64,000 bases of DNA from Pegea sp. RAD2-039. Lineage: Eukaryota; Chordata; Thaliacea; Salpida; Salpidae. Where the stretch lies: positions 62,001 through 126,000 of the forward strand of contig JAQGEQ010000147.1 in the NCBI GenBank assembly GCA_034620365.1, read 5' to 3'. Position 1 is the stretch's first letter. Every line of letters begins with the position of its first letter. The translations under genes were made by a program, and so were the position numbers. Shown here in pieces: positions 12,950-49,339 of the stretch. Under the pieces are notes generated by a model that was not told the origin of the DNA, did not search any database, and worked only from the letters and a program-made list of their open reading frames with translations.

Positions 12950-13600
12950 TTGAATTTACTGAAGTATATTCTTGCCCAATAATAATAATTTTTGATAATT
13001 TTATCTGTGATGAAAGTTAATTTAAAAGAGAACTCCTATATTTCTACTTCATAGTTTAAAGACTTGTTAACTTGTTAGATCGTTGATAAAAGTTTACAGA
13101 TGTTATTTTTGAACATCCGGGAGCTTTTAACCTTCCTAGTTAACTTTGAGTTCCTCTAACATACTTTCTAAGCCCTTGAACCTCTAGATTCTTCTGAAGA
13201 TCTCCCAAGCCATCTGAATATGCTGGGAGCTCTTGAAATTGTTCTAAATCAACCAAAAGCATTTCTTACTGGTTTTTAATGTTTATATAAGTTAAGAAAT
13301 ATTCTCAACATAGTTATCTGTTCAAATTTTTTTATTGAAATTATTTAAACCAAGAAATTTAGGAACTATCCTGGAGTTCATAGCATATTTATGGGGCTTA
13401 GAAGATAGACACTAATAGGACTCTCTTAACATCGAATGGGGAATAGCCGATTATTTAAAATTGTTGAATGAAAAGGAAAATTCTCAAAACTTTTCACTGC
13501 AGAAGGACGAGTTAGCCAAAAAGTTAATTAAATCTAATAAAATGTTTCATACGAAAAACAATTATTTATTAAAATTTGACAGAAAAAGTTTTGAGATGTT
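12950..13600. other. AT-rich intergenic DNA with degenerate short repeats
   Basis: No gene seen. The stretch 13120-13260 contains loosely repeated phrases around CTTTGAGTTCCTC / CCCTTGAACCTC that resemble the flanks of the tRNA-Asp duplication and the 24.2-24.5 kb and 36.4-36.7 kb patches. It looks like an old dispersed repeat. Confidence 0.4.
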
Positions 13601-13699
13601 CTTTTAACTGTTTCCATCTTTCTTTATCTTTGAAATAATTTTGTTAAAGAAATATAAATCATTCAGATAATTAACTACAAAACATTTCATCAAAACAAA

Positions 13700-13890
13700 A
13701 ACCAAATTTGAAGTTAACAAAAACAAACTTTGAAAATGTTTTAATGGAATTCGTATACTTGTGTTTGCAACTTTGCATGGCTTTAGATACAGGAATTGGA
13801 ACTTTAGAAGAAGTTGGTTGAATATTTTCAACTGGAATTTTTATCTTAACATCCACATCAACTTCACTTTTATTACTTTCCAGATGTTTG
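13700..13890 (-). pseudogene. out-of-frame tail remnant of copy A
   Basis: After the premature stop of copy A, the frame that reads SEVDVDVKIKIPVENIQPTS and SSKVPIPVSKAM continues the ancestral short tail, shifted in phase. It shows that the truncation of copy A is secondary. Confidence 0.75.
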
Positions 13891-14469
13891 TTAGGCATCT
13901 ACAGCTACAGAACCTTCTACTACCTTTTTGCTTTTTTTAATCATCTTATATAAAAGAACTCCAATAAACACCAATAATATACAAACCAGTATTGAAGCAC
14001 CAATCACTGTTGATGATGAAACTGGTTTGTTCTTAGAACATAAGAATGAAAGTTCTTGCTTTTCATTGAAATATGGATCAAATAAAATTTGATTACAATA
14101 ACTTTTTTCTATAAAAAAAGTATTTCCATCTTTACTTGGAGCTAAGTCTTCATAAAACAAAGATTTTTGCTCATTAACATCCAATGGTGTCCCATCACTC
14201 CAAGAACCAGTTTTGTTTTTTACTGAAAGCCCAATCCGATACTGATTTCTTCTTCTCCCTTCTTCAGTACCAGTTACACCATGAAAATCAGTCTTGTAGC
14301 AATCTTCTAATTGGTCCAAAGTATCATTTAATCTCTTCTGATTGTTGATTGGAGCTAGCTCTTCACCAAACTGATGACAATAATCAACAGAATCTTTCCA
14401 GTTTTTCCACTTGTCAACTATTTGAACAAGCAAGCCATCAGTTTCAAAACAATAATTACAAGGCTTCAT
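13891..14469 (-). CDS. CTLD membrane protein A, tail truncated
   Basis: 192 residues from ATG 14469 (starts MKPCNYCFETDG). A C-type-lectin-like domain spans about residues 13-145: NWKDSVDYCHQFGEELAPI, the YRIGLSVKNKTGSWSDGTPLD core and the closing FLCSK. A membrane helix (VIGASILVCILLVFIGVLLY) and a basic stop-transfer KKSKK follow. The EPN/QPD and WND sugar/calcium motifs are absent, so canonical carbohydrate binding is not expected. Compared with copies B, D and I, the tail ends early: CAA has become TAA after VAVDA. The rest of the ancestral tail is still readable in another frame at 13760-13880. No signal peptide precedes the domain in this exon. An acceptor-like AACAG|AGTTTTG lies 45 bases before the ATG. 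It may be an expressed short-tail variant or a decaying copy. Confidence 0.7.
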   Translation of the reverse strand: MKPCNYCFETDGLLVQIVDKWKNWKDSVDYCHQFGEELAPINNQKRLNDTLDQLEDCYKTDFHGVTGTEEGRRRNQYRIGLSVKNKTGSWSDGTPLDVNEQKSLFYEDLAPSKDGNTFFIEKSYCNQILFDPYFNEKQELSFLCSKNKPVSSSTVIGASILVCILLVFIGVLLYKMIKKSKKVVEGSVAVDA

Positions 14470-14894
14470 AATGAAGTAAACCAAATTTGTTGACAGTTTA
14501 CAAAACAAAACTCTGTTAATAAATATTAAATATAAATGAAATTTTGCAAAAAAGTAATCCTGCGTTTCAAACAAACCAACAAAGTTTTTAGTAATTTTGT
14601 TTCATTAAATAAAACAAAGTTTGTAATCTAAAGTCATTAAAAACTTTTTAATGAAAACATTTTGTATAGACTTATTTTTCCTTTAACATTACAGATCTTA
14701 AAATATGAATTAGGTAATAAGTAAATAATAAAAAATCAAAGTATTAGTATTTAATGTAAAAAACAATCTAAGAAAACTTTAATGTTGTAGGACAAATTAT
14801 GTATAATGCTTTTGTACAGTAAGCTTTGAGTTCAGTATTTTTAAACATCAACAAAGAATCAGTCAATCTTAGAACTAATTATATAAATACTTTA

Positions 14895-15010
14895 ATCTGG
14901 TATGTGTGTCCTGATCTGTACCTTACGTCAAATTGAAAACTATAAACATCAGTCTTGTAGCAATTTTCTAAATGATCTAAAGAATCTTTTAATCTCTTAC
15001 CGTAGTGGAT
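14895..15010 (-). pseudogene. truncated CTLD fragment
   Basis: The minus strand reads a short piece of the family domain (LDHLENCYKTDVYSFQFDVRY) and ends in SGHTYQIKVF before a stop. Related fragments lie at 26551-26705, 28917-29027, 38983-39150 and 41341-41508, always just upstream of a minus-strand gene copy. It is too short to be a receptor alone: either a relict gene or an unused exon. Confidence 0.6.
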
Positions 15011-15019
15011 TTGTAGTAC

Positions 15020-15470
15020 TTTACCAGCATCCAACCTTTGATCTGAAATGAGACTTTATTCAGATAATCATGTCTTCAGAATGGAGAATAAACGTTCAAA
15101 TAAAATTCTATTACATCACAAACTCACATCTGATTTCAGAACAAAAATGTTTCAAAAACAGATCAAAAAGATCCTTGTACAAAACACTCAATTGTCTCAA
15201 CAGATCTTACATCATTGAAAAGTCTCTTCAACATACTTTGTAAGCAAATCCAGAGTCGACTCTGCAGCTAAAACAAGAAAGTAGCAAGATAAAAGATGTA
15301 CGATCATCAGATCTCAACCACCTCTCTGTAAAATATGAGGATGGATCTGATTTCCACACATTGAAGTTTTCAATCTCTAGTGATGGATATTTCATTCATC
15401 AGTAATTACATCAACAACATTAGCTTTGTAGCATCTTGCTAACAAACTAAAATATTCAAATAAATTTGAT
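15020..15470 (-). repeat. conserved spacer block of the array
   Basis: About 450 bp nearly unchanged between gene copies. Other copies are at 24625-25080, 26715-27180, 29015-29475, 36778-37235, 39155-39615, 41510-41965 and inverted at 48790-49255. It contains the perfect 14-bp palindrome CAGAGTCGACTCTG at 15251-15264, preceded on the minus strand by an acceptor-like CTTGTTTTAG. No long frame is conserved. It may be a former exon plus flank, or a regulatory region duplicated with each gene. Confidence 0.8.
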
Positions 15471-16059: not shown

Positions 16060-16794
16060 TTAATGGAATTCGTATACTTGTGTTTGCAACTTTGCATTAC
16101 CTTTAGATACAGGAATTGGAACTTTAGAAGAAGTTGGTTGAATATTTTCAACTGGAATTTTCATCTTAGCATCCACATCAACTTCACTTTTATTATTTTC
16201 AGATGCTTGTTGGGCATCTACAGCTACAGAACCTTCTACTACCTTTTTGCTTTTTTCATTTATCTTATATAAAAGAACTCCAATAAACACCAATAATATA
16301 CAAACTAGTATTGAAGCACCAATCACTGTTGATGATAAAGATGAAACTGGTTTGTTCTTAGAACATAAGAATGAAAGTTCTTGCTTTTCATTGAAATATG
16401 GATCAAATAAAATTTGATTACCATAACTTTTTTCTATAAAAAAAGTATTTCCATCTTTACTTGGAGCTGAGTCTTCATAAAACAAAGATTTTTGCTCATC
16501 AACATCCAATGGTGTCCCATCACTCCAAGAACCAGTTTTGTTTTTTACTGAAAGCCCAATCCGATACTGATTTCTTCTTCTCCTTTCATTATTACCAGTT
16601 ACATCATGAACATCTGTCTTGTAGCAGTCTTCTAATTGCTCCAAAGTATCATCTAATCTCTTCTGATTGTTGATTGGAGCTAGCTCTTCACCAAACTGAT
16701 GACAATAATCAACAGAATCTTTCCAGTTATTCCACTTGTCAACTATTCTAACAAGCAAGCCATCAGTTTCATAATTATCTTTACAATTCTCCAT
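16060..16794 (-). CDS. CTLD membrane protein B, full short tail
   Basis: 244 residues from ATG 16794 (starts MENCKDNYETDG). CTLD about residues 13-144 with cysteines at about 31, 57 and 144; membrane helix about 156-177; tail about 178-244. The tail is acidic then Pro/Ser-rich (SEVDVDAKMKIPVENIQPTS, then KVPIPVSK). There is one N-glycosylation sequon (NKT, about 85-87) in the domain core. The 5' flank differs from the MKPC-type copies: no AGTTTTG exon start is seen, and TTTATTTACAAAT precedes the ATG. The copy in the equivalent position in module 2 is F. This is the best representative of the minus-strand MENC type. Confidence 0.78.
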   Translation of the reverse strand: MENCKDNYETDGLLVRIVDKWNNWKDSVDYCHQFGEELAPINNQKRLDDTLEQLEDCYKTDVHDVTGNNERRRRNQYRIGLSVKNKTGSWSDGTPLDVDEQKSLFYEDSAPSKDGNTFFIEKSYGNQILFDPYFNEKQELSFLCSKNKPVSSLSSTVIGASILVCILLVFIGVLLYKINEKSKKVVEGSVAVDAQQASENNKSEVDVDAKMKIPVENIQPTSSKVPIPVSKGNAKLQTQVYEFH

Positions 16795-18049: not shown

Positions 18050-19340
18050 GGTATTAACTATTACAATGAAAATTATTAACAATTAATCACTAATTTACAA
18101 CACAGCTAAAGCCGAACGACAGTCGTCATAATTACATTGATAGAAACAAGTGAAACAACCATATGGTTTGACACATTTACGTCAGCGGTAAAATACTTTA
18201 CTGTCCCACATTTCAAATGTATCAAAGTCACCCTAGTGAAAACGCTATTAGTCCTTTAGTACTCTTCAAAGCATATAATCGTGAACAATTACACAGATTG
18301 TTAATTATATTTAAAAAAGGGAAGAAATCACAGTTTAGAAATGACAATGTTGGCAATGTTATAACGGTTCAACTTCTGCTTGAACAACTCGAGTGATTCC
18401 GACATGACAATGTCTGATAGCAGTTGGTTCCAAGTACCAATTGTGTGACATGATAATATCTTTTCTCTTTTTAACGTACTAGGTGATATGCGCTAATTAA
18501 GATGTAATGTGTGTCGTATGAGCTGATATAACTTGAGGGAAGGTCCAATGAAAAAGAAACCATCAAACCGAAAGTCAATTAAATTGTTGATAATTTAACA
18601 AATAAGAATTAAGTCGGATTTAATCGGTCGAATTTCCAAAGTATCTAAATTGATGAAGCTGAGACGATGTTGATAACTATCATATTTAATATTAAGTTTT
18701 CTGCGTTTAGTGTTATTAAGTCGATTAATTCTTAAAGCCAACCTCCTATACTACGTGTATACTTACGTAGAACAGACTGCAATGTCTAAAGAAATCATTA
18801 AAAATAAAATGAAGAAAAACATAGATAATTTAAAATAAAATATCATCGAGCAAAAGGCGTAAATATTGCAGGGATTTAATATCAAGATAATAGAGATAAT
18901 AATAAAAATCTTTGAATGAGAAAAAGGGTACTTACATCTACGGAACGCTCTCTTGGTAAATGATCTTTAAACTCAATCAAGCTTCAAGATACCATTTTCT
19001 AAATGAGTATTTCTTACGAATGAGTTAACTTCTAGTTTAGGAAAAATGTATATGATAAGAAGTTTCAGCAGTGTCCAATAAATCTGGTGTTAAAACATTT
19101 GAGAATTTATTATGAAATAGATGAACTTATTCTAAGCAAACCATTTTTGTAGTGATTCTATTTATGTCGTTAGAGATGAGGATGCCTAAATCTTTAATGA
19201 CAGGTTACATTTGGACTTTTCTTACATAAATAGATTTAAATGATGTTGGTTAGAGTTTGAGAGTTAATTTATTGATGATAGAAACATCTTCTGCAGCTAG
19301 TTTGAGTTGTTCAGCTGTAAGTCAGCGATCAGTTTATTTA
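17860..19340 (-). mobile_element. non-LTR retrotransposon remnant, copy 2
   Basis: A longer minus-strand relative of copy 1. Around 19170-19210 it encodes VIKDLGILISNDINRITTKM, matching the 'KDLGV.....' motif found in the reverse-transcriptase region of CR1/Jockey/L2-like elements. The 'LLSDIVMSESLELFKQKLNR' end follows near 18370-18430, and the 3' part contains an (AAAT)n tract. It has many stops and indels. Deleted versions of the same element sit at 31195-32150 and 43135-44085, with an inverted one at 46490-47160, always beside the lectin-like genes. Confidence 0.75.
18019..18050. repeat. (AAAT)n microsatellite
   Basis: Seven to eight AAAT repeats within the 3' part of the retrotransposon remnant. 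A shorter tract lies at the same place in the related copy near 31362-31388. Confidence 0.95.
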
Positions 19341-19431
19341 GAATTCTTATTAAAATTATTCTTTTATTGAAAAACATCGAAGCGAAAAACATACGAAAAT
19401 TTGAAAAGTTTTTTTAAATTATATTTGTATA

Positions 19432-19582
19432 CATCTGTTTCGTCAGGATGCTTTTCACGATATCTGCGTCGCGACTCTTCGAACAAAGCACAGATACAAT
19501 TTCGATAATTTGGTTCAAATAAATTACCAGTCGAGTTGTAGTTGGATGATGTTGGTTGATTAGATGTAGTTTGATTATCATC
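19432..19582 (-). pseudogene. orphan long-tail piece 1
   Basis: The minus strand encodes DDNQTTSNQPTSSNYNSTGN, then an EPNYR...ICALFEESRRRYRE segment ending in DETDV, almost identical to the C-terminus of protein J (46252-46404). Here the stop TAA has become TAC, and no head is attached; a TGA lies just upstream in frame. It is placed inverted about 0.85 kb from the start of gene C, as in the two other modules. Confidence 0.75.
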
Positions 19583-20429
19583 TGCTCCTCTTCATCTGCT
19601 ATTCGCTATACAGCAAAAGTGATGACGTTGCAGAAGAACAAATTTTATTTTTATAAGGTTGTAGATAAAGAAAATTCTCATTGATATTTAATAAATAAAT
19701 AATTGGATAAATATTTTATTTGCAATAAAAAGTTTTTCTAATTTGTTTGTGATTTATTTAAATCTGTTTATTTAAATCAAAACATTTTCAGAATTAAATA
19801 CAAAACAATTTTTTAATTCAATCAAAAATTATTTTACTCCTTTTTATTTTTATGAAGTTTCTTCAAAACTTATTAGGAAACACAATCTTTGTTAACTTCA
19901 CTGAGAGCTCATAGATAAATTACTATGAGATTGATGATTTAAATGTTAGAATAGATGAGATGTTGTAGTCTAGTAAGTCGAGAAAATAAGTTAAAATTAA
20001 ATCTGTAAATTGTTAATTAGTTTAATTTTTAATTTTCGGCAAAGTTTTTGGATTTAAAAATTTTTTTGGATTACAATATTAAACTAAAACTAATTCTTTT
20101 GTTTCAAGCCTTTGTTTCAATTCTCTAATTTCAAGTATCTTTAATCAATCAAAGTTTTAGGAATTATTTATAAAGTTTTCGAAAGTTGATATTTTTTGAA
20201 AAAAAAAATTTTGTATAATAATTTGAAACATTTAAAAAAATCTTAATTTTATTGAAAGTTGTTAATTTGAAAAATCAATATTTTGACATCTGAAAAACAA
20301 ACTATCAGAAAATAATTACAATCTTGCTTCTACTTTAGCGAGAAAGTTTCAATTCTTTCATCATAAACTAATTTGCTTTATTGTTTCTGTGCAGAGTTTT
20401 GTCTGTTAACTTTTACAAAAAACGTCTTT

Positions 20430-21377
20430 ATGGAAAATTGTGAATATAATTATGAAACTGATGGCTTGCTTGTTCGAATAGTTGACAAGTGGAAAAACTG
20501 GAAAGATTCTGTTGATATTTGTCATCAGTTTGGTGAACAGCTAGCTCCAATTAACAATCAGAAGAGATTAGATGATACTTTGGAGCAATTAGAAGATTGC
20601 TACAAGACTGATGTTCATGGTGTAACTGGTACTGAAGAATGGAGAAGAAGAAATCAGTATCGGATTGGGCTTTCAGTAAAAAACAAAATTGGTTCTTGGA
20701 GTGATGGAACACTACTGGATGTTGATGAGCAAAAATCTTTGTTTCGTAATCATAAAATACGAACATCGACAGAAAATACTTTTTATATAAAGAAATTGTT
20801 ATTCAATGGAATCCGATTTGACTCATCTTACGATGATGAAGATAAACTTCCGTTCTTATGCTCCAAGATCCAACCAACAACAACACCACCATCAACAGAG
20901 CTGGTTAGAATATCAACACCAGTAAATTTTCAACCAAAAATAGCAACAACTGGTCGAAATGATACTTTGTCAGCAACAACATCATCAACAAGTTTGTTTT
21001 TAGTGGTTGGTACTTCACTCGGACTTATCATATTGTTGGTGATTATTGGAGTTCTTCTCTACAAGCTATTTAAGATCAACAAGCTAGAAATAAACTCTCC
21101 TATCGCCTTGGAATCTCAAAAACCAGCTGAGCTAGCTGTCAATAATACTTCAGCTGAAAATAACCAAATAATTTACAGTGAAAGTGGAAATCCTTTGGAA
21201 GATTCTGTTAATAATCAATTTGTAACAAATAATGAAGCTGTTTATGATGTTATTGTTCCATATAGAAATCATGAGAGAATATATTATAGGTTTGGAAATC
21301 CTGTTGGAACATCTGAAGATCATCAATCTACTTCCAATCAATCAGCATCCATCATCTACGATACACCTTGGTCATAA
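20430..21377 (+). CDS. CTLD receptor C, tyrosine-rich long tail
   Basis: 315 residues from ATG 20430. CTLD about residues 13-144 (NWKDSVDICHQFGEQLAPI ... YRIGL ... GSWSDGT ... FLCSK); Thr/Ser/Pro-rich stalk about 148-188; membrane helix about 189-211 (LFLVVGTSLGLIILLVIIGV); tail about 212-315. The tail has six tyrosines, including IIYSES, VYDVI, VPYRNH, IYYRF and IIYDTP. None is a canonical ITIM, and the YDVI...YYRF pair only loosely resembles an ITAM. A strong acceptor TTTCTGTGCAG|AG ends at about 20395, and the frame is open from it through the ATG, so an upstream exon could be joined here. The NKT sequon is lost (NKI). Closest relative is G; the head is shared with J, but the tail differs. 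Confidence 0.8.
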   Translation: MENCEYNYETDGLLVRIVDKWKNWKDSVDICHQFGEQLAPINNQKRLDDTLEQLEDCYKTDVHGVTGTEEWRRRNQYRIGLSVKNKIGSWSDGTLLDVDEQKSLFRNHKIRTSTENTFYIKKLLFNGIRFDSSYDDEDKLPFLCSKIQPTTTPPSTELVRISTPVNFQPKIATTGRNDTLSATTSSTSLFLVVGTSLGLIILLVIIGVLLYKLFKINKLEINSPIALESQKPAELAVNNTSAENNQIIYSESGNPLEDSVNNQFVTNNEAVYDVIVPYRNHERIYYRFGNPVGTSEDHQSTSNQSASIIYDTPWS

Positions 21378-21479
21378 ACCAACTTTTTCTTCAATTGATC
21401 TAAATGTAATCTTTTCTTAGGTTTATAAGAATTGATGAAATATTGTAATGTAGAAAGTTTATTGACAGCAAATTGCTAA

Positions 21480-22560
21480 AAATACTTTTTCTTGGAAACT
21501 TTTCTTTTCATTTCCTGAGTGTTACCTTCTTTCTGCTCCTTAATAATTTCGTTTTTAATTTAATTTATTCATTTTAATTTTAATTAGATTTAAAGTTCAA
21601 CCTGCTGATGGTCATTTTTCTATAGTTTTGTTTAATTCTCATTTCACATTCGTGTGCTTTTGTATATTAATAATTAATTTGGATCGAACATCGTAAAAGA
21701 TTAGAAAAAAGTTTTTAGATCTTTTAATTGCAAACAAGGTTGTGAAATGCAGCACTTAGTAAACCCTTCTTAGGGTAGTTCTTGACAATTCCAAATCTTT
21801 TATCGAATTAGAGTTTATCAAGTAGTTCAAGAATTGATTATTTCTTATCTAATTAAATTATGAAATATTTGTTCTTGATGTCGGCCATGGTGATTTACAA
21901 ATTTATTCTCAACTTTTACTAAAATGTTCTTTCCTGGCTTCTAATAAGCTAAAAGATATTCTCAATAAATTTAGGTCTCTTTATTCTTAGGACGTTTATC
22001 TTCTTGTCAATTACACCAATATAAATAAACAATTGAATAAAATAAGTTAGTTATGTATTATACATTTTTGTTTGAAAAATAATTCTATTTAATAAAACAT
22101 TTAAAAAAATTGAAACTGAAATACCTGAAATTGAGTTTTAGATAGCTTTGAAAACTTTTATAAAAATACAAATGAAAAAAATTTAAAGATTTTATCTATT
22201 TGATCTTCAAACATATAATAATTTTTTTGAGTTATTTAAATGTAAAAATTATATTACGTTTTGAATAAGTCAAAAATTTTCCTTCTAAAATTGATTTGAA
22301 AATTTAAAAAGTATATTTGGTAAAACCTTTAAATAAATATTATATTGTTTTTATTTCAACAGTTTTTAATCAGATTTTACAGAGTTTAATTGACCGCTTA
22401 ATCGATGAAAGCATTTATTACTTTTCATTTTATCAAAGTTTAAAGACTTTGCTATTTGAGTAAATTGATCTTGGTTATATATCTTGGAATTTATATACTT
22501 TCAACTATTATTTTATTTTTAGAAGTTCTCTAAAAAAAATTTTAAAAACTTATATTTAAA
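21480..22560. other. AT-rich spacer downstream of gene C
   Basis: No gene seen. Only part is shared with the shorter spacer downstream of gene G (34340-34732), so this module carries extra unique AT-rich DNA. Confidence 0.5.
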
Positions 22561-22561
22561 T

Positions 22562-24660
22562 GATAATTAAAAACCAATTAAGTTCAGAAGTCTTTGTAGC
22601 TTATTACAAAGAACATATAATTATTATTTAATGAAGACTTGTAATTTTGAAAACTTTAAATCTGTAGAAAATCTCTTATATTTCATCACCTTTATTCTTG
22701 TAGTTTTATTTTCATTAAGAATTAATATTTCATTTCAAACTTTAAAAACTATACATTTGTAATTGTAACAAATAAGAATCTTTTAAATTTTCGATTATTA
22801 AAATTGCTTTATATTCATCTTTCACAATAATTGAAAAGATATAGAAACTTAAAGTTAGAATTGAAACATTTTAAATTAATTTAAAATATTTTCTTTCTTT
22901 TTCAGTCTAATTTAAAATTTAAATACAATTTTTGAATAATCACAATTCAAATAAAGTAGCTTGATGAAACAAGATAAATTTTGTACAATACTGTAATAAA
23001 AATATAATGTTACAATAGAAATAACTAAGTTAAATAATCAAAATTAATTAAACTAGTAAGTAATTAAAAAACTGAACACTATTTATTACTACTTAATCTA
23101 ACAACTTTGGAAATATGCATTCATGTAGAAAAATTCAAGTAAAAATCATAAACACAAACTACTTAGTCAACAACGCAGCAACTTCTGAAGAAGAAATTGA
23201 TTAAAAGAGAAACCAAAAAAGATTATAATTCTATAAATAAGATGAGAGAACATAATTATAAGTGAAGCACAATTCATAAATGTTAAATAACCGACTAAAC
23301 CATAAGTTGTTGTTGTCATCCAAAGATTGTACAAAAGATTCTATTGATGACTAGTTGTTGTTGTAAACCAAATATTTTTACTGAAAGACTTTCCAGTACC
23401 AATCAACCTAAATGTAAATATCAAAAATCCTAAAAACTCCAAATAAAAGAATATAAAACAGAAATTTAAGGAAATATGGGAAGCAGATGCTAAAATACTT
23501 TCAGTTGCGATTAGTGGATTAGATATAACATAAAAGAAATTCTGAAAAGTTTATTAACAAATACCAGGAAAAATTCAAGAAGTTGAAATTCAAAAGATGA
23601 CATTGATGAAGATTTTAAATCCATACATTTAAGCAGATTAGAAAATAGAATCTTAAAAGCTTTTACATCAAAAAAATATTTAAAATATGAAACGTTGATG
23701 ATGAAGACGCGTTTCACATCCTTGACTGCTCCCTGTTCAACCTGATACATCTAAGATCAAAATCTTTTTACCAAACGGTTTGTCAACTTCTTGTTGGTCA
23801 TTACGCCGTTTCAGGGACACAAACTGAATCGGTGTTGCAAAGAATAACATCTTGCTTTACAGAAATGAGAAGATTTCGATAAAAAGAATTGTGTTGCTTG
23901 AAAATATTTCATCATGATTGAAATCAATTCAAATAAAATCATGAAATTAAACAAACAGAAGCAAACAGTTTGAAAGTTCTTGTATTAGGTTCAAGTTTTT
24001 ATTTTCTTAAATGATTTTCTTTAAAATATTCTTAACCGATTTATTAAAAATATTTCTTGTTTTCTAAATTAAATAAAATTCTAGAAAATTGTTTAATTAA
24101 AATGTCCTAAAAATTTTACTAAAAGTTGTTTGAAAAATATTTAGAAAATAATAATGTTCATCGACTTGAGAGCATTTTGAAGATGTGAAGAAGATGTTTG
24201 GGAGTTTAAAAAAATTTTCACAAAGTTTTAAGCATTTTTAGAGCGCTACAAAATGTTTACTGAGTCCAAGTGATGTCAGGGAGTTGGGGAAAAGTATCAG
24301 GGAAGTTAAAAAATATTTACAGGACCCAGAGAATGTTTACAGAATTCAAGAATGTCCAGGAAGCTACCTGAACCTTGTTTAGTGAGTTTTCAGAATATTT
24401 TCAGAGGGCTCAAAGTACTTCTAGGAAGTTCAGAACATATTCAGGAGGTTTAGAATTTCGTAAGAATTAGAATAATAGATCTCAAATATAGTTCTGTATA
24501 AAGCTGCCATTCTAACCACACATCTGCACAGATCCAAATATTGGGTCTTTTAAGGCAGCTACTTCTGGATTGTTTCCATCAACATTGACTTCTGAAACAT
24601 TCTATGCATCAAATGGTGATACTGTAGTGGATTTGTAGTACTTTACCAGCATCAAACCTT
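22562..24660. repeat. segmental duplication, left copy
   Basis: About 2.1 kb recurring at 34733-36800 in the same orientation, with a few percent differences and small indels. A 79-codon frame at 23511-23750 is broken by an indel in the other copy, which argues against coding. The patch 24200-24480 contains short degenerate repeats built on phrases such as AGGAAGTTCAGAACATATTC. On the minus strand 24530-24620 reads SEVNVDGNNPEVAALKDP, a possible relict of another family tail. Confidence 0.85.
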
Positions 24661-25080
24661 TGATTTGAAATAAGACTTTATTAAAGTAATCATGTCTTCA
24701 GAATGGAGAATAATCGTTCACATAAAATTCTATTACATCACAAACTCACATCTGATTGCAGAACAAAAGTGTTTCAAAAACAGATCAAAAGATCCTTTCA
24801 CAAAACACTCAATTGTTTCAACAGATCGTACATCATTGAAATGTCTCTTCAACATCTTTTGTAAGCAAATCCAGAGTCGACTCTGCAGCTAAAACAAGAA
24901 AGCAGGAAGATAAAAGATGTACGATCATAAGATCTCAACCACTCTCTGTAAAATATGAGGTTGGATCTGATTTTCACACATTGAAGTTTTCAATCTCTAG
25001 TGATGGATATTTTATTCATCAGTAATTACATCAACAACATTAGCTTTGTAGCATCTTGCTTACAAACTAAAATATTCAAA
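24625..25080 (-). repeat. conserved spacer block, copy 2
   Basis: Near-identical to the block at 15020-15470, including palindrome CAGAGTCGACTCTG at 24872-24885. It sits at the junction of modules 1 and 2. Confidence 0.8.
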
Positions 25081-25404
25081 TAAATTTAATGAAAAATATC
25101 TTTCAATAAGAACTGAGAATTTTTTTAATGTTTCAATAAAAGTAAAAACTATTTTATAAAATTATTAAATTAAAAAGAAATTATGAAAAGAATTAGTTTG
25201 CTTCTAGGTATATAAAAGAAACAAACCGTTGGAGACAACAAAAAGATTTTAAGAAAATGTTAGAAAAGAATTTGTAAGTAAACAGAAATAATTTTGTTAA
25301 AGAAATATAAATCATTTAGATAATTAAATACAAAACATTTTAACAAAACGAAAAACAAAATTGAAGTGAACGAAAACAAATTTGAAAATATTTTAATGGA
25401 ATCC

Positions 25405-26550: not shown

Positions 26551-26705
26551 CTGGTATGTGTGTCCTGATCTGTATATTACGCCTAATTGAAAACTATGAA
26601 CATCAGTCTTGTAGCAATTTTCTAATTGGTCCAAAGTATCTTCTAATCTCTTATGATTGTTGATTGGAGCTAGCTCTTCGCTAAATTGCTGACAAATGAT
26701 CTAAA
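26551..26705 (-). pseudogene. truncated CTLD fragment
   Basis: The minus strand reads EELAPINNHKRLEDTLDQLE then NCYKTDVHSFQLGVIYRSGH and ends TYQIKVFI stop. It keeps the N-terminal third of the domain, then runs into unrelated sequence. It is longer than the fragment at 14895. Confidence 0.62.
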
Positions 26706-36800: not shown

Positions 36801-37235
36801 TACCAGCATCCAACTTTTGATTTGGAATAGAAACTTTATTAAGATAATCATGTCTTCAGAATGGAGAATAATCGTTCAAATAAAATTCTATTACATCACA
36901 AACTCACATCTGATTGCAGAACAAAAATGTTTCAAAAACAGATCAAAAGATCCTTTCACAAAACACTCAATTGTCTCAACAGATCGTACATCATTGAAAA
37001 GTCTCTTCAACATCCTTTGTAAGCAAATCCAGAGTCGACTCTGCAGCTAAAACAAGAAAGCAGGAAGATAAAAGATGTACGATCATCAGATCTCAACCAC
37101 CTCTCTGTAAAATATGAGGTTGGATCTGATTTTCACACTTTGAAGTTTTCAATCTCTAGTGATGGATATTTTATTCATCAGTAATTACATCAACAACATT
37201 AGCTTTGTAGCATCTTGCTTACAAACTAAAATATT
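36778..37235 (-). repeat. conserved spacer block, copy 5
   Basis: Copy of the 450-bp spacer at the module 2/3 junction, with the palindrome near 37029. Confidence 0.8.
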
Positions 37236-37912
37236 CAAATAAATTTAAGGAAAAATATCTTTCAATCAGAACTGAGAATTTTTTTAAATCTTTTAAAAAA
37301 AGTAGAAACAATTTTGTTTGTAAAATTATTAAATTAAAAAGAAATTATGAAAAGAATTAGTTTGCTTCTAGGTATATAAAAGAAACAAACCGTTGGAGAC
37401 AACAAAAAGATTTTAAGAAAATGTTAGAAATGAATTTGTAAGTAAACAGAAAACTTCAGAAAATAAGTTCTAGATTTAGTTTGTTTTTGTTGCAGCTTCT
37501 AAAATTATCTGATCTTCTCATGATAAAGAAAGAAGAAACAAACTAAAAAGATAAATAAAAAAGTTATAATAATCTTTACAAGGATTGCTTCTCTCTGATG
37601 ACTATCAACAGATTTTGTTCTAAGAAAATATTTAAGACGAAAAATATTTTACATTAAAATTTGACAAAGAAAGTTTTGAGATGTTCTTTTTACTGTTTAC
37701 ATCTTTCTTTATCTTTGAAAGAATTTGTGCTAAAGAAATATAAATCATTTAGATAATTAAATACAAAACTTTTCAGCAAAACGAAAAACAAATTTGAAGT
37801 TAACGAAAACAAATTTGAAAATATTTTAATGGAATCCTTATACTTGTGTTTGCAACTTTGCATGACCTTTAGATACAGGAATTGGAACTTTAGAAGAAGT
37901 TGGTTGAATATT

Positions 37913-38554
37913 TTAAAGTGGAATTTTTATCTTAACATCCACATCAACTTCACTTTTATTATTTTCAGATGCTTGTTGGGCATCTACAGCTACAGAACCT
38001 TCTACTACCTTTTTGCTTTTTTTAATTATCTTATATAAAAGAACTCCAATAAACACCAATAATATACAAATTAGTATTGAAGCACCAATCACTGTTGATG
38101 ATGAAACTGGTTTGTTCTTAGAACATAAGAATGAAAGTTCTTGCTTTTCATTGATATATGGATCAAATAAAATTTGACTACCATAACTTTTTTCTATAAA
38201 AAAAGTATTTCCATCTTTACTTGGAGCTGAGTCTTCATAAAACAAAGATTTTTGCTCATCAACATCCAGTAGTGTTCCATCACTCCAAGAACCAGTTTTG
38301 GCTTTTACTGAAAGCCAAATCCGATAATGATTTCTTCTTCTCCTTTCATTATTACCAGTTACATCATGAACATCTGTCTTGTAGCAATCTTCTAATTGAT
38401 CCAAAGTATCATCTAATCTCTTCTGATTGTTGATTGGAGCTAGCTCTTCACCAAACTGATGACAATAATCAACAGAATCTTTCCAGTTTTTCCACTTGTC
38501 AACTATTCGAACAAACAAGCCATCAGTTTCAAAAAAATACTTACAAGGCTTCAT
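37913..38554 (-). CDS. CTLD membrane protein H, tail truncated
   Basis: 213 residues from ATG 38554 (MKPCKYFFETDG; the second N-terminal cysteine of its relatives is Phe here). Domain substitutions YRIWLSVKAKTGSW replace the conserved G of YRIGL and remove the NKT sequon. The tail stops at KIKIPL by the same two-base change as copy F. Loss of conserved domain residues together with the truncated tail suggests relaxed constraint, though the frame is open. Confidence 0.68.
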   Translation of the reverse strand: MKPCKYFFETDGLFVRIVDKWKNWKDSVDYCHQFGEELAPINNQKRLDDTLDQLEDCYKTDVHDVTGNNERRRRNHYRIWLSVKAKTGSWSDGTLLDVDEQKSLFYEDSAPSKDGNTFFIEKSYGSQILFDPYINEKQELSFLCSKNKPVSSSTVIGASILICILLVFIGVLLYKIIKKSKKVVEGSVAVDAQQASENNKSEVDVDVKIKIPL

Positions 38555-38982
38555 AATGAATTAAACAAAGTTTTTTAACAGTTTACAAAACAAAACTCTG
38601 TAAATAAATATCAAATATAAATAAAATTTTTAAAAAAAGTAATCCTGCGTTTCAAACAAACCAACAAAGTTTTTAGTAATTTTGTTTCATTAAATAAAAC
38701 AAAGTTTGTAATCTAAAGTCATTAAAAACTTTTTAATGAAAACATTTTGTATAGACTTATTTTTCCTTTAACATTACAGATCTTAAAATACGAATTAGGT
38801 AATAAGTAAATAGTAAAAAATCAAAGTATTAGTATTTAATGTAAAAAACAATCTAAAACAAACTTTAATGTTGTAGGACAAATTATGTATAATGCTTTTG
38901 TACAGTAAGCTTTGAGTTCAGTATTTTTAAACATCAACAAAGAATCAATCAATATTAGAATTATTTATATAAATACTTTAAT

Positions 38983-39150
38983 CCGGTATGTGTGTCCTGA
39001 TCTGTACCTTACGTCAAATTGAAAACTATGAACATCAGTCTTGTAGCAATTTTCTAATTGATCCAAAGTATCTTCTAATCTCTTATGATTGTTGATTGGA
39101 GCTAGCTCTTCGCTAAATTGCTGACAAATGATCTAAAGAATCTTTTAATC
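38983..39150 (-). pseudogene. truncated CTLD fragment
   Basis: Relict encoding APINNHKRLEDTLDQLENCY and ending SGHTYRIKVF, as at 26551-26705. Confidence 0.6.
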
Positions 39151-40195: not shown

Positions 40196-40912
40196 TTATG
40201 CTTGTGTTTGCAACTTTGCATGACCTTTAGATACAGGAATTGGAACTTTAGTAGAAGTTGGTTGAATAATTTCAACTGGAATTTTCATCTTAGCATCCAC
40301 ATCAACTTCACTTTTATTATTTTCAGATGTTTGTTGGGCATCTACAGCGACAGAACCTTCTACTACCTTTTTGCTTTTTTTAATCATCTTATATAAAAGA
40401 ACTCCAATAAACACCAATAATATACAAACTAGTATTGAAGCACCAATCACTGTTGATGATGAAACTGGTTTGTTCTTAGAACATAAGAATGGAAATTCTT
40501 CTTTTTCATTGAAATATGGATCAAATAAAATTTGATTACAACAACTTTTTTCTATAAAAAAAGTATTTCCATCATTACTTGGAGCTGAGTCTTCATAAAA
40601 CAAAGATTTTTGCTCATCAACATCCAATGGTGTCCCATCACTCCAAGAACCAGTTTTGTTTTTTACTGAAAGCCCAATACGGTACCGATTTCTTCTTCTC
40701 CCTTCTTCAGTACCAGTTACACCATGAAAATCAGTCTTGTAGCAATCTTCTAATTGGTCCAAAGTATCATTTAATCTCTTCTGATTGTTGATTGGAGCTA
40801 GCTCTTCACCAAACTGATGACAATAATCAACAGAATCTTTCCAGTTTTTCCACTTGTCAACTATTTGAACAAGCAAGCCATCAGTTTCAAAGCAATAATT
40901 ACAAGGCTTCAT
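40196..40912 (-). CDS. CTLD membrane protein I, full short tail
   Basis: 238 residues from ATG 40912 (MKPCNYCFETDG), with complete domain, helix and tail ending SKGHAKLQTQA. Uniquely, an earlier ATG at 41017 is in frame and adds 35 residues rich in Phe, Leu and Ile (including FYLYLIFINRVLF), which could act as a signal anchor. Most relatives have no ATG or have stops there, so I take the shorter start. Only EERRR-type small differences from A lie in the domain. The 3' flank carries the membrane-helix mini-frame with a changed end (YHEKIIQL). Confidence 0.75.
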   Translation of the reverse strand: MKPCNYCFETDGLLVQIVDKWKNWKDSVDYCHQFGEELAPINNQKRLNDTLDQLEDCYKTDFHGVTGTEEGRRRNRYRIGLSVKNKTGSWSDGTPLDVDEQKSLFYEDSAPSNDGNTFFIEKSCCNQILFDPYFNEKEEFPFLCSKNKPVSSSTVIGASILVCILLVFIGVLLYKMIKKSKKVVEGSVAVDAQQTSENNKSEVDVDAKMKIPVEIIQPTSTKVPIPVSKGHAKLQTQA

Positions 40913-41340: not shown

Positions 41341-41508
41341 CCGGTATGTGTGTCCTGATCTGTACCTTACGTCAAATTGAAAACTATGAACATCAGTCTT
41401 GTAGCAATTTTCTAATTGATCCAAAGTATCTTCTAATCTCTTATGATTGTTGATTGGAGCCAGCTCTTCACCAAATTGCTGACAAATGATCTAAAGTATC
41501 TTTTAATC
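41341..41508 (-). pseudogene. truncated CTLD fragment
   Basis: Relict encoding QQFGEELAPINNHKRLEDTL then a short run to YRSGHTYRIKVF. Same structure as 38983-39150. Confidence 0.6.
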
Positions 41509-43134: not shown

Positions 43135-44085
43135 ACAATTTGTCAAACTACAAACCATTTATTATACTTTTTAACACCTGATTTTTCTGAAGTAATGGAT
43201 TTTGGAAGATTTCAAATTGTGGTCAATGTAATAAAATGAATCTTTATACAGAACTTTATTCAAATGAATAGTGCGACTAACACAATGAAAATTATTAATG
43301 ATTAATCAATAATTTCCAACACACCCAAAGACCGAATGACAGTCGTCATAGTTACATTCACTGAATTAAGTTATTAATTAAGCATTCAGCACATTTACGT
43401 CAGCGGTAAAATACTTTACTATTTTACATTTCAAATGTATCAAAGTCATCCTAGTAAGAAAGCTATTAGTCCGTTTAATAGTACTAATTGGATTAATTCT
43501 TAATGACAACCTCCAATACTATATACGTAGAAAAGGTTGTAATCTCTACAGAAATCATTAGAAATAAGATGAAGAAAACCATAAATAATTTCAAATAATA
43601 TATGGTTGAGGAAAAGGCGTAAATATTGTAGAGATATAAAGATAATAGAGATAATAATAAAAATCTTTGTGTGAGAAAACGGTACCCACATCTAGGAAAA
43701 GCTCTCTTGGTAAATGATCTTTAAACGGAATCAAGCTTTAAGATACCGTTTTCTAAGTGAGTATTTCATACGAAAGAGTTAACTTCTACTTTGGGAAGGA
43801 TGTATATGATAAGAAGTTTCAACAGTGTCCAATAATTCTGGTGTTAAAACATTTGAGAATTTATTATGAAATATATGAACTTATTCTAAGCAAACCATTT
43901 TTGTAGTGATTCTATTTATGTCGTTAGAGATGAGGATGCCTAAATCCTTAATAACAGGTTACAATGGGACTTTTTGTTCTTACTTAAATAGATTTAAATG
44001 ATGTTGGTTAGAGTTTGAGAGTTAATTTATTGATGATAGAAACGTCTTCTGCAGCTAGTTTGAGTTGTTCAGCTTTAAGTCAGCT
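43135..44085 (-). mobile_element. non-LTR retrotransposon remnant, module 3
   Basis: Same element as 31195-32150, again internally deleted (near 43480). It retains the 3' untranslated part and the KDLGILISND region on the minus strand near 43940. Its inner part forms one arm of the inverted repeat whose other arm is 46240-46880. Confidence 0.7.
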
Positions 44086-44184
44086 ATCAGTTTATTTAGA
44101 ATTCTTATTAAAATTATTCTTTTATTGAAAAACAGCGAAGCGAAAAACAAATATAAGCTTCAAAATTTTTTTAAAATTATATTT

Positions 44185-44340
44185 TTATACATCTGTTTCG
44201 TCAAGATGCTTTTCACGATATCTGCGTCGCGACTCTTCAAACAAAGCACAGATACGATCTCGATAATTTAGTTCAAATAAATTACCAGTCGAGTTGTAGT
44301 TGGATGATGTTGGTTGATTAGATGTAGTTTGATTATCATC
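44185..44340 (-). pseudogene. orphan long-tail piece 3
   Basis: Minus-strand copy of the J tail with its stop intact, about 0.85 kb upstream of gene J and inverted to it. The same tail is also present in the sense orientation as the 3' end of J. Confidence 0.75.
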
Positions 44341-45198
44341 TGCTCCTCTTCATCTGCTATTAGCTGTACAGCAAAAGTGATGACGTTGCAGAAGAACAAA
44401 TTTTATTTTGATAAGGTTGTAGATAAAGAAAATTCTCATTGACATTTAATAAATAAATAATTTGATAAATATTTCGTTTGCAATAAAAGGTTTTTCTAAT
44501 TTGTTTGCGATTTATTTAAATCTGTTTATTTAAATCAAAACATTTTCAGAATTAAATACAAAACAATTTTTTAATTCAATCAAAAATTATTTTACTCCTT
44601 TTTATTTTTATGAAGTTTCTTCAAAACTTATTAGGAAACACAATCATTGTTAACTTCACTGAGAGCTCATAGATAAATTACTATGAGATTGATGATTTAA
44701 ATGTTAAAATAGATGAGATGTTGTAGTCTAGTAAGTCGAGAAAATAAGTTGAAATTAAATCTGTAAATTGTTAATGAGTTTATTGTTTAATTTTCGGCAA
44801 AGTTGTTGGATTACAATATTAAACTAAAACTAAATTCTTTTGTTTCAAGCCTTTGTTTCAATTCTCTGTTTTTAAGATTCCTTAATCCATCCAAATTTTT
44901 AGTATTTATTTATAAGGCTTTCGAAAGTTGATATTTTTTGAAAAAAAAAACTTTTGTATAATAATTTGAAACAATTAGAAAAATCTTAATTTCATTGAAA
45001 GTTGTTAATATATCAGATTTATTGAAAATTTTAACTTGAAAAATCAACATTTTAACATTGAAAAAACAAACTACCAGAAAATAATTATAATCTTGCTTCT
45101 GCTTTAGCGAGAAAGTTTCAATTCTTTCATCATAAACTAATTTGCTTTATTGTTTCTGTGCAGAGTTTTGTCTGTTAACTTTTACAAAAAACGTCTTT

Positions 45199-46404
45199 AT
45201 GGAGAATTGTGAATATAATTATGAAACTGATGGCTTGCTTGTTCGAATAGTTGACAAAAGGAAAAACTGGAAAGATTCTGTTGATATTTGTCATCAGTTT
45301 GGTGAACAGCTAGCTCCAATCAACAATCAGAAGAGATTAAATGATACTTTGGATCAATTAGAAGATTGCTACAAGACAGATGTTCATGGTTTAACTGGTA
45401 CTGAAGAAAGAAGAAGAAGAAATCAGTATCGGACTGGGCTTTCAGTAAAAAACAAAACTGGTTCTTGGAGTGATGGAACATTACTGGATGTTGTTGAGCA
45501 AAAATTTTTGTTTTTTGAAAAGTTAGCTCCAAATGAAAATGGAAATACTTTTTATATACAGAAAGTGTTGTTCAATGGAATCCGATTTGACTCATCTTAC
45601 AATGATGAATATAAACTTCCGTTCTTATGCTCCAAGATCCAACCAACAACAACACCAACATCAACAGAGCTGGTTAGAATATCAACACCAGTAAATTTTC
45701 AACCAAAAATAGCAACAACTGGTCGAAATGACACTTTGTCAGCAACAACATCATCAACAAGTTTGTTTTTAGTGGTTGGTACTTCACTAGGACTTATCAT
45801 AGCGTTGGTGATTATTGGAGTTCTTCTCTACAAGCTATACAGAATGAAGAAAAGCAAATTGGATGTTAACGATCCTACAACTGAAGAACTTGATCAAACA
45901 GCTGAGCTTGATGTAGATGACATTGATAACGATTTCGCTCAAGACCCCCAACAACCTTTTGAGCCCAATGATACAAGTGATGTTGTTCTTACAGAATCTG
46001 AAAAATCAGCAGCGCTTGCTTTGAATGAAACTAATGATGCTTCAACCATTATTCTCGGTGAAAATATCAAAGCAACTCACCCTAGAGTTCTCAATCCAAT
46101 AAAAGAATCTGATCAATTCAATTCAAGTTCAGTTATTCTTGTTCCTAGTGAAAATTTATCTGTTTTTTCAAATGAAAATCAGTATAAGCTTAATCGTAAG
46201 GTTAGAGATGATAATCAAATGTCTACTGGTTATCAATCTAGAAATTTTACTGATAATCAAACTGCATCTAATCAACCAACATCATCCAACTACAACTCGA
46301 CTGGTAATTTGTTTGAACCAAATTATCGAGAACGTATCTGTGCTTTGTTTGAAGAGTCGCGACGCAGATATCGTGAAAAGAATCCTGACGAAACAGATGT
46401 ATAA
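45199..46404 (+). CDS. CTLD receptor J, very long tail ending ETDV
   Basis: 401 residues from ATG 45199. Head as in C and G, with a domain loop that follows the minus-strand type (FFEKLAPNENGNTFYIQK). The NKT sequon is retained, followed by a T/S/P stalk and a membrane helix (VVGTSLGLIIALVIIGVLLY). A tail of about 190 residues then diverges after KLYRMKKSK: acidic, Asn/Ser-rich, with an EPNYRERICALFEESRRRYR segment and the C-terminus NPDETDV. ETDV fits a class I PDZ-binding motif (x-S/T-x-V). An AATAAA at 46462-46467 lies 58 bp after the stop. The last 51 codons also occur as inverted orphan pieces at 19432, 32247 and 44185. The upstream acceptor TTTCTGTGCAG is conserved. The most complete member of the family here. 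Confidence 0.82.
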   Translation: MENCEYNYETDGLLVRIVDKRKNWKDSVDICHQFGEQLAPINNQKRLNDTLDQLEDCYKTDVHGLTGTEERRRRNQYRTGLSVKNKTGSWSDGTLLDVVEQKFLFFEKLAPNENGNTFYIQKVLFNGIRFDSSYNDEYKLPFLCSKIQPTTTPTSTELVRISTPVNFQPKIATTGRNDTLSATTSSTSLFLVVGTSLGLIIALVIIGVLLYKLYRMKKSKLDVNDPTTEELDQTAELDVDDIDNDFAQDPQQPFEPNDTSDVVLTESEKSAALALNETNDASTIILGENIKATHPRVLNPIKESDQFNSSSVILVPSENLSVFSNENQYKLNRKVRDDNQMSTGYQSRNFTDNQTASNQPTSSNYNSTGNLFEPNYRERICALFEESRRRYREKNPDETDV

Positions 46405-46467: not shown

Positions 46468-46489
46468 AGAATAATTTTAATAAGAATTC

Positions 46490-47160: not shown

Positions 47161-47535
47161 AGTTTGACAAATTGTAATTTAGACTTCTGTTTGCATATTT
47201 TCTTTACTTACTTTTTTTGTTTCTTATTCTATCCTTTTGCTGCACTTTTGTTTAATATTTTCTCCGCCTTGCTTATAATGAACTTTTGGACTTATTTTTC
47301 TTTCCAATTATATGTTCGCTATCTCTATCAATAGTTTGATTAATTTTATAATTTTGATTGCATCATATTGTTATTAGTATATTGTACAACTTTTATATTT
47401 TTCATCAATTTAAATATTTTCATTTTTAATTAAAATTATTATAAGATTTTATTTAAATTTAAAAAGAAAAAAAATATTTTAAATCAATTTGAAATGTTTC
47501 AATTCTAACTTTAAATTTCAACATCTCAATATTTC

Positions 47536-48078
47536 AAGTGGAAAAAATGGGAAGATTCTGTTGATATTTGTCAGCAGTTTGGTGAACAGCTAGCTCCAAT
47601 CAACAATCAGAAGAGATTAGATGATACTTTTGACCAATTAGAAGACTGCTACAAGACAGATATTTATGGTGTAACTAGTACTGAAGAATGGAGAACGATC
47701 AATCAGTATCGGATTGGGCTTTCAGTAAAAAACAAAACTGGTTCTTGGAGTGATGGGACACCATTGGATGTTGATGAACAAAAATCTTTGTTTTTTGAAG
47801 ACTTAGCTCCAATTAAAGATGGAAATACTTTTGTTATAGAAAAAAGTTATGGTAATCAAATTTTATTTGATCCATATATCAATGAAAAGCAAGAACTTTC
47901 ATTCTTATGTTCTAAGAACAAACCAGTTTCATCATCAACAGTGATTGGTGCTTCAATACTAATTTGTATATTATTGGCGTTTATTGGAGTTCTTTTATAT
48001 AAGATAATTAAAAAAAGCAAAAAGGTAGTAGAAGGTTCTGTAGCTGTAGATGTGCAACAAACAAACATCTGGAAATAA
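47536..48078 (+). pseudogene. CTLD gene K, 5' end lost
   Basis: Open from AAG TGG at 47536 (KWKKWEDSVDICQQFG) through the domain, FLCSK and helix (VIGASILICILLAFIGVLLY) to a stop at 48078. The first 18-19 codons of the family, including any ATG, are replaced by sequence homologous to the 5' flank of MENC-type genes. The tail is frameshifted by an AAAC insertion after VQQT, and the old tail frame is still readable at 48086-48170. It has the same orientation as J, and with its spacer it is an inverted copy of the minus-strand unit. Confidence 0.75.
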
Positions 48079-48393
48079 TAAAAATGATGTTGATGGGGAT
48101 GCTAAGATGAAAATTCCAGTTGAAAATATTCGACCAACTTCTTCTAAAGTTCCAATTCCTGTATCTAAAGCCATGCAAAGTTGCAAACACAAGTATAAGA
48201 ATTCCATTAAAACATTTTCAAAGTTTGTTTTTGTTAACTTCAAATTTGATTTTTGTTTTGATGAAATGTTTTGTAATTTACTATCTAATTGATTTATTTC
48301 TTTAACACAAATTCTTTCAAAGATAAAGAAAGATGGAAACAGTAAAAAGAACATCTCAAAACTTTCTTTTGTCAAATTTTAATGTAAAATGTT

Positions 48394-48515
48394 TTCTTAG
48401 AAATAAATCTGCTGATAGTCATCAGAGAGAAGCAATCTTAGTGAAGATTCTTATAACTTTTCTATTTATCTTTTTAGTTTGTTTCTTATTTCTTTATCAT
48501 GAGAAGATCAGATAA
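48394..48515 (+). other. conserved membrane-helix mini-frame, inverted copy
   Basis: Reads KSADSHQREAILVKILITFL then FIFLVCFLFLYHEKIR and stop. It preserves the frame seen on the minus strand at 15725-15840 and in the other units. It can be read from ATG 48333 as a 60-codon frame. Confidence 0.45.
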
Positions 48516-48789
48516 TTTTAGAAGCTGCAACAAAAACAAACTAAATCTAGAACTTATTTTTTGAAATTTTCTGTTTACTTACAAATTCATTTCTAACATT
48601 TTCTTAAAATCTTTTTGTTGTCTCCAACGGTTTGTTTCTTTTATATACCTAGAAGCAAACTAATTCTTTTCATAATTTCTTTTTAATTTAATAATTTTAC
48701 CAACAAAATTGTTTCTACTTTTTTTAAAAGATTTAAAAAAATTCTCAGTTTTTATTGAAAGGTATTTTTCATTAAATTTATTTGAATAT

Positions 48790-49255
48790 TTTAGTTTGTA
48801 AGCAAGATGCTACAAAGCTAATGTTGTTGATGTAATTACTGGTAAATGAAATATCCATCACTAGAGATTGAAAACTTCAATGTGTGAAAGTCAGATCCAA
48901 CCTCATATTTTACAAAGAGGTGGTTGAGATCTGATGATTGTACATCTTTTATCTTGCTACTTTCTTGTTTTAGCTGCAGAGTCGACTCTGGATTTGCTTA
49001 CAAAGGATGTTGATGAGACTTTTCAATGATGTACGATCTGTTGAGACAATTGAGTGTTTTGTACAAGGATCTTTTTAATCTGTTTTTGAAACACTTTTGT
49101 TCTGCAATCAGATGTGAGTTTGTGATGTAATAGAATTTTATGTGAACGATTATTCTCCATTCTGAAGACATGATTATCTTAATAAAGTCTTATTTCAAAT
49201 CAAAGGTTTGATGCTGGTAAAGTACTACAAATCCACTACAGTATCACCATTTGAT
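48790..49255 (+). repeat. conserved spacer block, inverted copy 8
   Basis: Inverted copy of the 450-bp block with palindrome CAGAGTCGACTCTG at 48975-48988. Downstream at 49255-49330, SEVNVDGNNPEVAALKD is readable, as at 24530-24620. Confidence 0.8.
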
Positions 49256-49339
49256 GCATAGAATGTTTCAGAAGTCAATGTTGATGGAAATAATCCAGAA
49301 GTAGCTGCCTTAAAAGACTCAATATTTGTATTAAAAGAA

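Follow-up and report, generated by a model that had tools for sequence, protein, structure and literature searches.

Among described systems, the natural killer (NK) and Dectin receptors are among the closest to the genes analysed here. They are type II proteins, with an N-terminal tail and a C-terminal C-type lectin-like domain (CTLD), and in Dectin-1 the residues DEDG precede the hemITAM, i.e., half of an immunoreceptor tyrosine-based activation motif (ITAM) (available sections of PMC11624271). CTLD families have also been surveyed in a chigger mite and in rotifers. The accessible part of the mite study describes proteins with secretion signatures in most cases and with few helices, in which they differ from the receptors described below, and a cluster, orthomcl1094, in which the sugar motifs are missing (PMC6275457). 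The rotifer survey, in its accessible part, was restricted to leader-bearing proteins without a helix, which is also a difference (PMC8878817). The CTLD gene array that we describe lies in a stretch of 64,000 nucleotides (hereafter, the window; G+C content 27.5%), which spans positions 62001-126000 of contig JAQGEQ010000147.1 (C200) in the 105.7-Mb, 387-contig assembly GCA_034620365.1 of Pegea sp. RAD2-039 (Thaliacea, Salpidae). Judging by their sequences, we give a probability of about 0.55 to the reading that these genes encode diversified single-pass surface recognition receptors of type III that signal through phosphotyrosine.

The list of open reading frames (ORFs) and tblastn searches place 11 copies (A-K) of one gene, on both strands, within about 13.5-49.3 kb of the window (Table 1). 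Ten of them (A-J) are ATG-started ORFs, each with one intact CTLD and one helix, which encode 192-401 residues counted from the conserved Met. The tails end early in copies A, E, F, H and K, which corrects the earlier note on this DNA. Five CTLD fragments and three fragments of J-type tails inside the array, and the reach of the family far outside the window, are further corrections to it. The array is built of repeated blocks, which are 94.5% identical between 18794-21567 and 31611-34421, 90.8% between 18704-21069 and 43472-45838, and 95.8% between 22563-25288 and 34733-37452, at offsets of 12.2-12.8 kb and 24.8 kb. The earlier note had proposed eleven single-pass CTLD-like genes on both strands, with intronless coding and in repeated modules of about 12 kb; the ORFs A-J with copy K, the single-exon coding sequences and the identities of the blocks agree with it on all these points. 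It did not mention the apparent lack of a signal peptide, the tyrosine and PDZ motifs of the tails, the exchange of tails among sister ectodomains, the decay of the type-1 tails or how large the family is. With copy J as the query, tblastn gives at least 109 matches in the genome at E ≤ 0.001, fragments and split matches included, mainly on contigs C107, C200, C254, C247 and C248; more remote matches lie on C100, C78, C22, C71 and others. As judged from these matches, the window array is one part of a large genome-wide receptor family with roughly a hundred members. The copies that we read number 50, of which 11 lie in the window, 27 on C107 (a contig not covered exhaustively), 6 on C254, 5 on C247/C248 and 1 on C71. 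One further copy on C247 has a printed sequence identical to a copy already among the 50, and one remote relative (L034, C12:423301-424300) is without the helix-plus-tail and has a hydrophobic end resembling a glycosylphosphatidylinositol signal.

The kinship with CTLDs claimed in the earlier note is supported by Pfam, by a profile search of the PDB and by hhalign. Among the Pfam families listed, only Lectin_C is shared by all ten ORFs A-J (E ≤ 1); copy A scores above its curated cut-off of 22.6 bits (23.0) and the other nine below it (15.7-21.4). In the aligned family set (A2), 22 of the 29 sequences match Lectin_C at E ≤ 0.01. The profile of this set retrieves 69 PDB sequences at E ≤ 1, the best 60 of which are all C-type lectin-like; a multi-CTLD chain gives the best E-value, 3e-5, and the best single domain gives 0.0014. 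These alignments are mostly limited to residues 15-56. Compared by hhalign with 12 canonical CTLDs encoded in this genome, the family gives 94.9% (E 4.4e-8, residues 22-96). The only invariant cysteines among the 29 aligned members are C4, C31, C57 and C144, which suggests disulfides and hence a lumenal domain; Cys31 presumably pairs with Cys144. Taken together, the matches indicate that the array is surely a CTLD-type receptor array. The motifs EPN, QPD and WND, expected of a Ca2+-dependent C-type lectin, occur in none of the 50 copies (residues 86-150), just as the earlier note had stated. It had taken this to suggest protein ligands: the premise stands, and the suggestion follows weakly from missing motifs. 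Two other kinships were considered for copy J and rejected. Two PDB matches to sodium-channel beta-2 cover the helix only (E 0.11-0.12) and were taken as chance, and a Pfam match to KIAA1549 (24.1 bits for a cut-off of 24.0) covers the helix and tail and was taken as compositional. The genome has 102 Lectin_C matches, mostly to other, canonical CTLDs. Nine of 40 canonical CTLD exons that were checked have tyrosine-phosphatase exons 2.9-4.5 kb downstream on the same strand (C19, C77, C249, C250 and C257), and it looks as if CTLD-bearing receptor phosphatases exist in this genome.

All 49 copies with an N-terminus start with M-x-x-C. The start was set by alignment to the first residue of J, so that this count gives the conservation of Met among the copies alignable there, and tblastn matches that begin later are mostly outside it. 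The strongest 12-residue hydropathy in the first 40 residues is at most 1.30 in these copies, whereas three CTLD genes of this genome that do bear a leader reach 1.63, 2.51 and 2.09; a hydrophobic leader, as in a secreted or type I protein, was found in none of the 49. In 32 of 47 copies there is an in-frame stop at most 15 codons upstream of the ATG. Together, the conserved start, the missing leader and the upstream stops suggest that the CTLD is exported without a signal peptide. Lysine and arginine are more frequent in the 15 residues after the helix than in the 15 before it (means 4.86 and 1.16) in 49 of the 50 copies, and equal in one; the helix of C254_260, a cut ORF, was miscalled in this count. 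By the positive-inside rule, the basic flank of a helix faces the cytosol, so this cluster would place the CTLD outside and the tail inside. The receptors are probably leaderless and outward-facing.

The tails carry recurrent tyrosine motifs. We counted these in 31 tails of at least 30 residues and less than 60% alike, drawn from the 50 copies, and obtained expectations from 2,000 shuffles. The half-ITAM [DE]xxYxx[IL] occurs 20 times for 3.2 expected, and no shuffle reached 20. It is present in 14 of the 31 tails, including those of copies C and G, and these tails may be classed as hemITAM-bearing (an acidic residue, then YxxL/I). YxxI is also in excess (29 for 9.8 expected), as is Yxx[ILVM] (50 for 32.9), and the control motifs FxxI, HxxI, NxxI, YxxK, YxxS, YxxE and YxxN show no enrichment. 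In 18 hand-picked tails, the mean conservation of the five Tyr columns is 0.79, compared with 0.50 for the 99 others (p 0.004). A recurrent module consists of D-x-x-Y-x-x-I-x10-Y followed by a C-terminal (V/I)YAVVDK or IYDxP, and 9 of the 50 copies end in class I PDZ-type C-termini (ETDV, ETQV, ETLV or QTQV). Of the window copies, C and G bear tyrosine tails, J ends in ETDV and the eight of type 1 have tails with at most one tyrosine. Phosphotyrosine signalling is plausibly the function of such motif-bearing tails.

The ectodomain shows signs of constraint. Across the 21 pairs formed by seven type-1 copies there is no indel in the CTLD and helix, compared with 4.4 frameshifting indels per kb upstream, 4.0 in the tail and 6.1 downstream, which makes the observation more than chance. 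The ratio of nonsynonymous to synonymous rates (dN/dS; 95% intervals by codon bootstrap) in the CTLD is 0.67 (0.46-0.99) for window copies A-J, 0.64 (0.37-1.14) for C, G and J, 0.39 (0.25-0.61) for five copies of C254, 0.52 (0.28-0.97) for C247/C248 and 0.45 (0.36-0.57) for the 27 copies of C107. Residues 31-60 have the lowest level of nonsynonymous differences; the peak in the window falls at residues 106-135, and the C107 copies have peaks there and at 61-75. Synonymous differences are also high at 121-146 in the window. Residues 106-135 follow the WSDGT strand, where CTLDs bear the ligand loop. We make no claim of positive selection, no CTLD set having a dN/dS above 1.

Sister ectodomains bear different kinds of tail. 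Copies C and J are identical at 127 of 150 CTLD residues and at 32 of 82 aligned tail residues. The ectodomains of C, G and J form a clade (support 98/96), as do all 11 window ectodomains (97/85), in a tree where 14 of 46 inner branches are well supported. Among seven copies compared, the closest tail to that of C is in C254_277 (61/97) and the closest to that of J in C247_360 (73/188). Either ectodomains were homogenised within arrays or tails moved between arrays, and paired-receptor-like sets would result either way. Candidate readers of the tails are encoded in the same genome, which has 33 matches to SH2 exons. On C34 (L071), phosphatase exons lie downstream of SH2 exons in the same orientation, and the best PDB match of the SH2 part is PTPN11 (2e-32). 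On C127 (L072), SH2, ankyrin, SH2 and kinase pieces occur in succession, which we take to be the SHARK layout. We infer that the receptors use such SHARK-like and SHP2-like proteins as readers.

These elements suggest the following mechanism. The helix would act as a reverse signal anchor (type III), which inserts the CTLD into the endoplasmic reticulum without a cleaved leader and displays it outside. The receptors would cluster upon ligand binding, and tails with [DE]xxYxx[IL] and (V/I)YAVV (C and G here, many elsewhere) would be phosphorylated and then read by SH2 proteins, e.g., a SHARK-type kinase or an SHP2-type phosphatase. In copy J, an ectodomain of this kind would be coupled with PDZ scaffolds, and the tyrosine-poor copies might be decoys or partners, or be decaying. 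The arrays would grow by module duplication and conversion, which would mix ectodomains with tails.

Several observations weigh against this reading. The hhalign match spans only the first half of the domain, and the second half is without the C2/C3 cysteines: no Cys pair common to copies A-J was found at these places. The ectodomains show no excess of N-glycosylation sequons (102 for 110.6 expected) and the tails show some excess (71 for 50.8±6.4), which does not support the assumed topology; as a test of topology, N-glycosylation gave no help. The export of long N-terminal domains by a reverse signal anchor is uncommon. We chose the half-ITAM pattern with prior knowledge of the tails, which, being paralogous, are not independent of one another. 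The strict immunoreceptor tyrosine-based inhibitory motif (ITIM), [SIVL]xYxx[ILV], is weakly enriched (15 for 8.6 expected, 12 of 31 tails, p 0.02), as is a relaxed ITAM, Yxx[IL]x(6-12)Yxx[IL] (3 for 0.58, 3 of 31 tails, p 0.02), and YxxP is not enriched in these tails. We did not adopt strict ITIM and ITAM readings of the tails, for which these enrichments seem too weak. Finally, the CTLD dN/dS of the type-1 copies, 0.76 (0.44-1.50), has neutrality within its interval, and that of their tails is 1.5, as drift predicts.

In an alternative that we regard as unlikely, the array results from the ordinary birth-and-death expansion of CTLD membrane proteins for adhesion or uptake, YxxI is an endocytic sorting signal and not an SH2 docking site, and most window copies are becoming pseudogenes. 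The consensus of endocytic signals is indeed also YxxΦ; the type-1 tails drift, tails are shortened in K, itself a truncated copy, and in four of the full copies, and the array contains at least eight fragments. Big CTLD expansions are known elsewhere, e.g., the 88 genes of the chigger mite, few with helices, in the part of the study available (PMC6275457). This alternative accounts less well for an enrichment that consists of I at +3 plus an acidic residue at -3, and not of YxxΦ at large alone, for tails that each have several motifs at intervals and keep their tyrosines, and for a CTLD and helix free of indels. It is also possible, if doubtful, that the molecular reading is the same and the receptors serve gamete, mate or clonal recognition instead of immunity. 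In other animals, recognition arrays that evolve fast and recombine have a part in reproduction, and the sequence offers no pointer to an immune tissue. An immune or self-recognition use may be surmised.

The leaderless N-terminus might itself be an artefact, if an ordinary signal peptide were encoded in an overlooked upstream exon and the proteins had a type I architecture. An acceptor-like YAG is present at most 60 nucleotides upstream in 35 of 47 copies, with a frame open from acceptor to ATG in A, C, G, J and some others, and in L033, a more distant relative, a leader-like start is part of the same exon. Yet an in-frame stop separates acceptor and ATG in 24 of the 35, none of the 49 copies has lost Met1 or Cys4, and the more distant relatives L031, L032 and L036 also start with M-x-x-C and without a leader. 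In three further remote relatives, L034, L035 and L037, the start is ambiguous. In addition, the 300 nucleotides 5' of the type-1 copies diverge by 0.24, with frameshifting indels, in a comparison that mixes two promoter types. We consider such an exon improbable; a 5'-untranslated exon may instead be spliced just upstream, with translation presumably starting at M-x-x-C.

Table 1. Receptor copies, fragments and module blocks of the array, in window positions.
Feature	Position	Strand	Remarks
Copy A	13891..14469	-	type 1; CTLD + helix + short tail
Copy B	16060..16794	-	type 1
Copy C	20430..21377	+	CTLD + Ser/Thr-rich stalk + helix + tyrosine tail (YDVI, YDTP)
Copy D	25405..26127	-	type 1
Copy E	27896..28492	-	type 1; early tail end
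Copy F	30042..30677	-	type 1; early tail end; from conserved Met, ORF begins 7 codons earlier
Copy G	33278..34231	+	tyrosine tail (YDTI, YDTP)
Copy H	37913..38554	-	type 1; early tail end
Copy I	40196..40912	-	type 1; from conserved Met, ORF begins 35 codons earlier
Copy J	45199..46404	+	long tail; C-terminus ETDV, class I PDZ-type
Copy K	47536..48075	+	5'-truncated, without residues 1-19; type-1 helix + tail
CTLD fragment (fossil)	14936..15022	-	
CTLD fragment (fossil)	26590..26697	-	
CTLD fragment (fossil)	28910..29044	-	
CTLD fragment (fossil)	38974..39129	-	
CTLD fragment (fossil)	41341..41487	-	
J-type tail fragment	19431..19591	-	46/53 residues identical to J
J-type tail fragment	32250..32414	-	47/54 residues identical to J
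J-type tail fragment	44188..44349	-	46/54 residues identical to J
First repeated module block (C side)	18704..25288		
Second repeated module block (G side)	31611..37452		
Third, partial module block (J side)	43472..45924		

The array is flanked by a mitochondrial ribosomal L51 gene and an actin gene with introns, and contains remnants of reverse transcriptase resembling that of long interspersed nuclear elements, recognised by eye among the ORFs (17554-17814 and 18328-18492, both on the minus strand). A 113-bp satellite of 18.9 copies (window 10498-12631) adjoins it. With at most one mismatch allowed, the window contains 27 occurrences of the sequence GATGACGTCATC for 0.04 expected, often within introns and ORFs. 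Its places include window positions 8127-10222 and 50884-54992 and the loci L015-L018 and L072, and it is absent inside the receptor array (13600-49300). Its density is patchy elsewhere: 2.25 per kb on C254, 4.3 per kb at the SHARK locus and 0 on C248. An ORF of 255 residues (window 9548-10315, plus strand) is studded with MTSS/DDVI from the TGACGTCA motif and has no Pfam match. At the end of C1 (L029, 400-650), the 18S gene starts in a ATCAACAAAATT microsatellite, probably an assembly fault. Pfam models of nematode cuticle collagen (PF01484) and arthropod cuticle (PF00379) had no match in this genome, which does not establish their absence, as the control genomes gave none either; a bdelloid spliced leader and a Brachionus MMR-B primer were likewise looked for and not found.

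Expanded CTLD receptors are an already known kind. Leaderless N-terminal CTLDs with half-ITAM or PDZ tails were not met in the literature searched and may still be published, and in the accessible parts of the mite and rotifer studies (PMC6275457, PMC8878817) leaderless receptors with an N-terminal CTLD and tyrosine tails are not described. We put forward tentatively, and would not rate as the likelier outcome, that the family is a new class of animal recognition receptors: about a hundred leaderless, N-terminal-CTLD receptors with a reverse signal anchor, whose hemITAM/ITIM-like tails would lead to SHARK and SHP2 and which would be paired by tail exchange, forming a convergent, topologically inverted counterpart of the NK/Dectin receptors in an invertebrate. 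If this were true, a non-vertebrate animal would have independently built large recombining sets of lectin-like proteins with immunoreceptor-type tails, their membrane orientation being reversed and a signal peptide lacking. Two questions would become testable: the large-scale leaderless export of a folded N-terminal domain of about 150 residues, and whether a paired activating/inhibitory logic appears whenever recognition arrays expand.

The mite and rotifer expansions resemble this family in being large and lineage-specific, with sugar motifs often missing (available parts of PMC6275457 and PMC8878817). The sister ectodomains with differing tails in one array recall the paired immunoreceptors; here, however, one kind of tail is PDZ-type and another tyrosine-poor and decaying, and opposed signalling is not implied. 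For leaderless export, neuregulin-1 offers a likeness, being a membrane protein exported without an N-terminal signal peptide, with an extracellular N-terminal domain and an internal helix. It differs in that it concerns single genes with EGF/Ig domains, which are unrelated, and a literature search for this kind of export precedent found none. The comparison with mammalian NK clusters made in the earlier note holds for the genomic arrangement and the tail motifs and fails for the topology. Type II NK and Dectin receptors have the opposite order to the CTLD N-terminal to the helix and the C-terminal tail found here, where some copies also have PDZ-type ends, and common descent with them is not implied. 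The likeness to the NK-complex/Dectin-1 cluster (Ly49, CLEC-2, Dectin-1) lies in clustered single-pass CTLD receptors whose tails have acidic residues and then Y-x-x-I/L. It extends to the motif itself: the tail of CLEC-2 has DEDGYITLNI, which the tail of L039/L043, DDAGYATINI, resembles.

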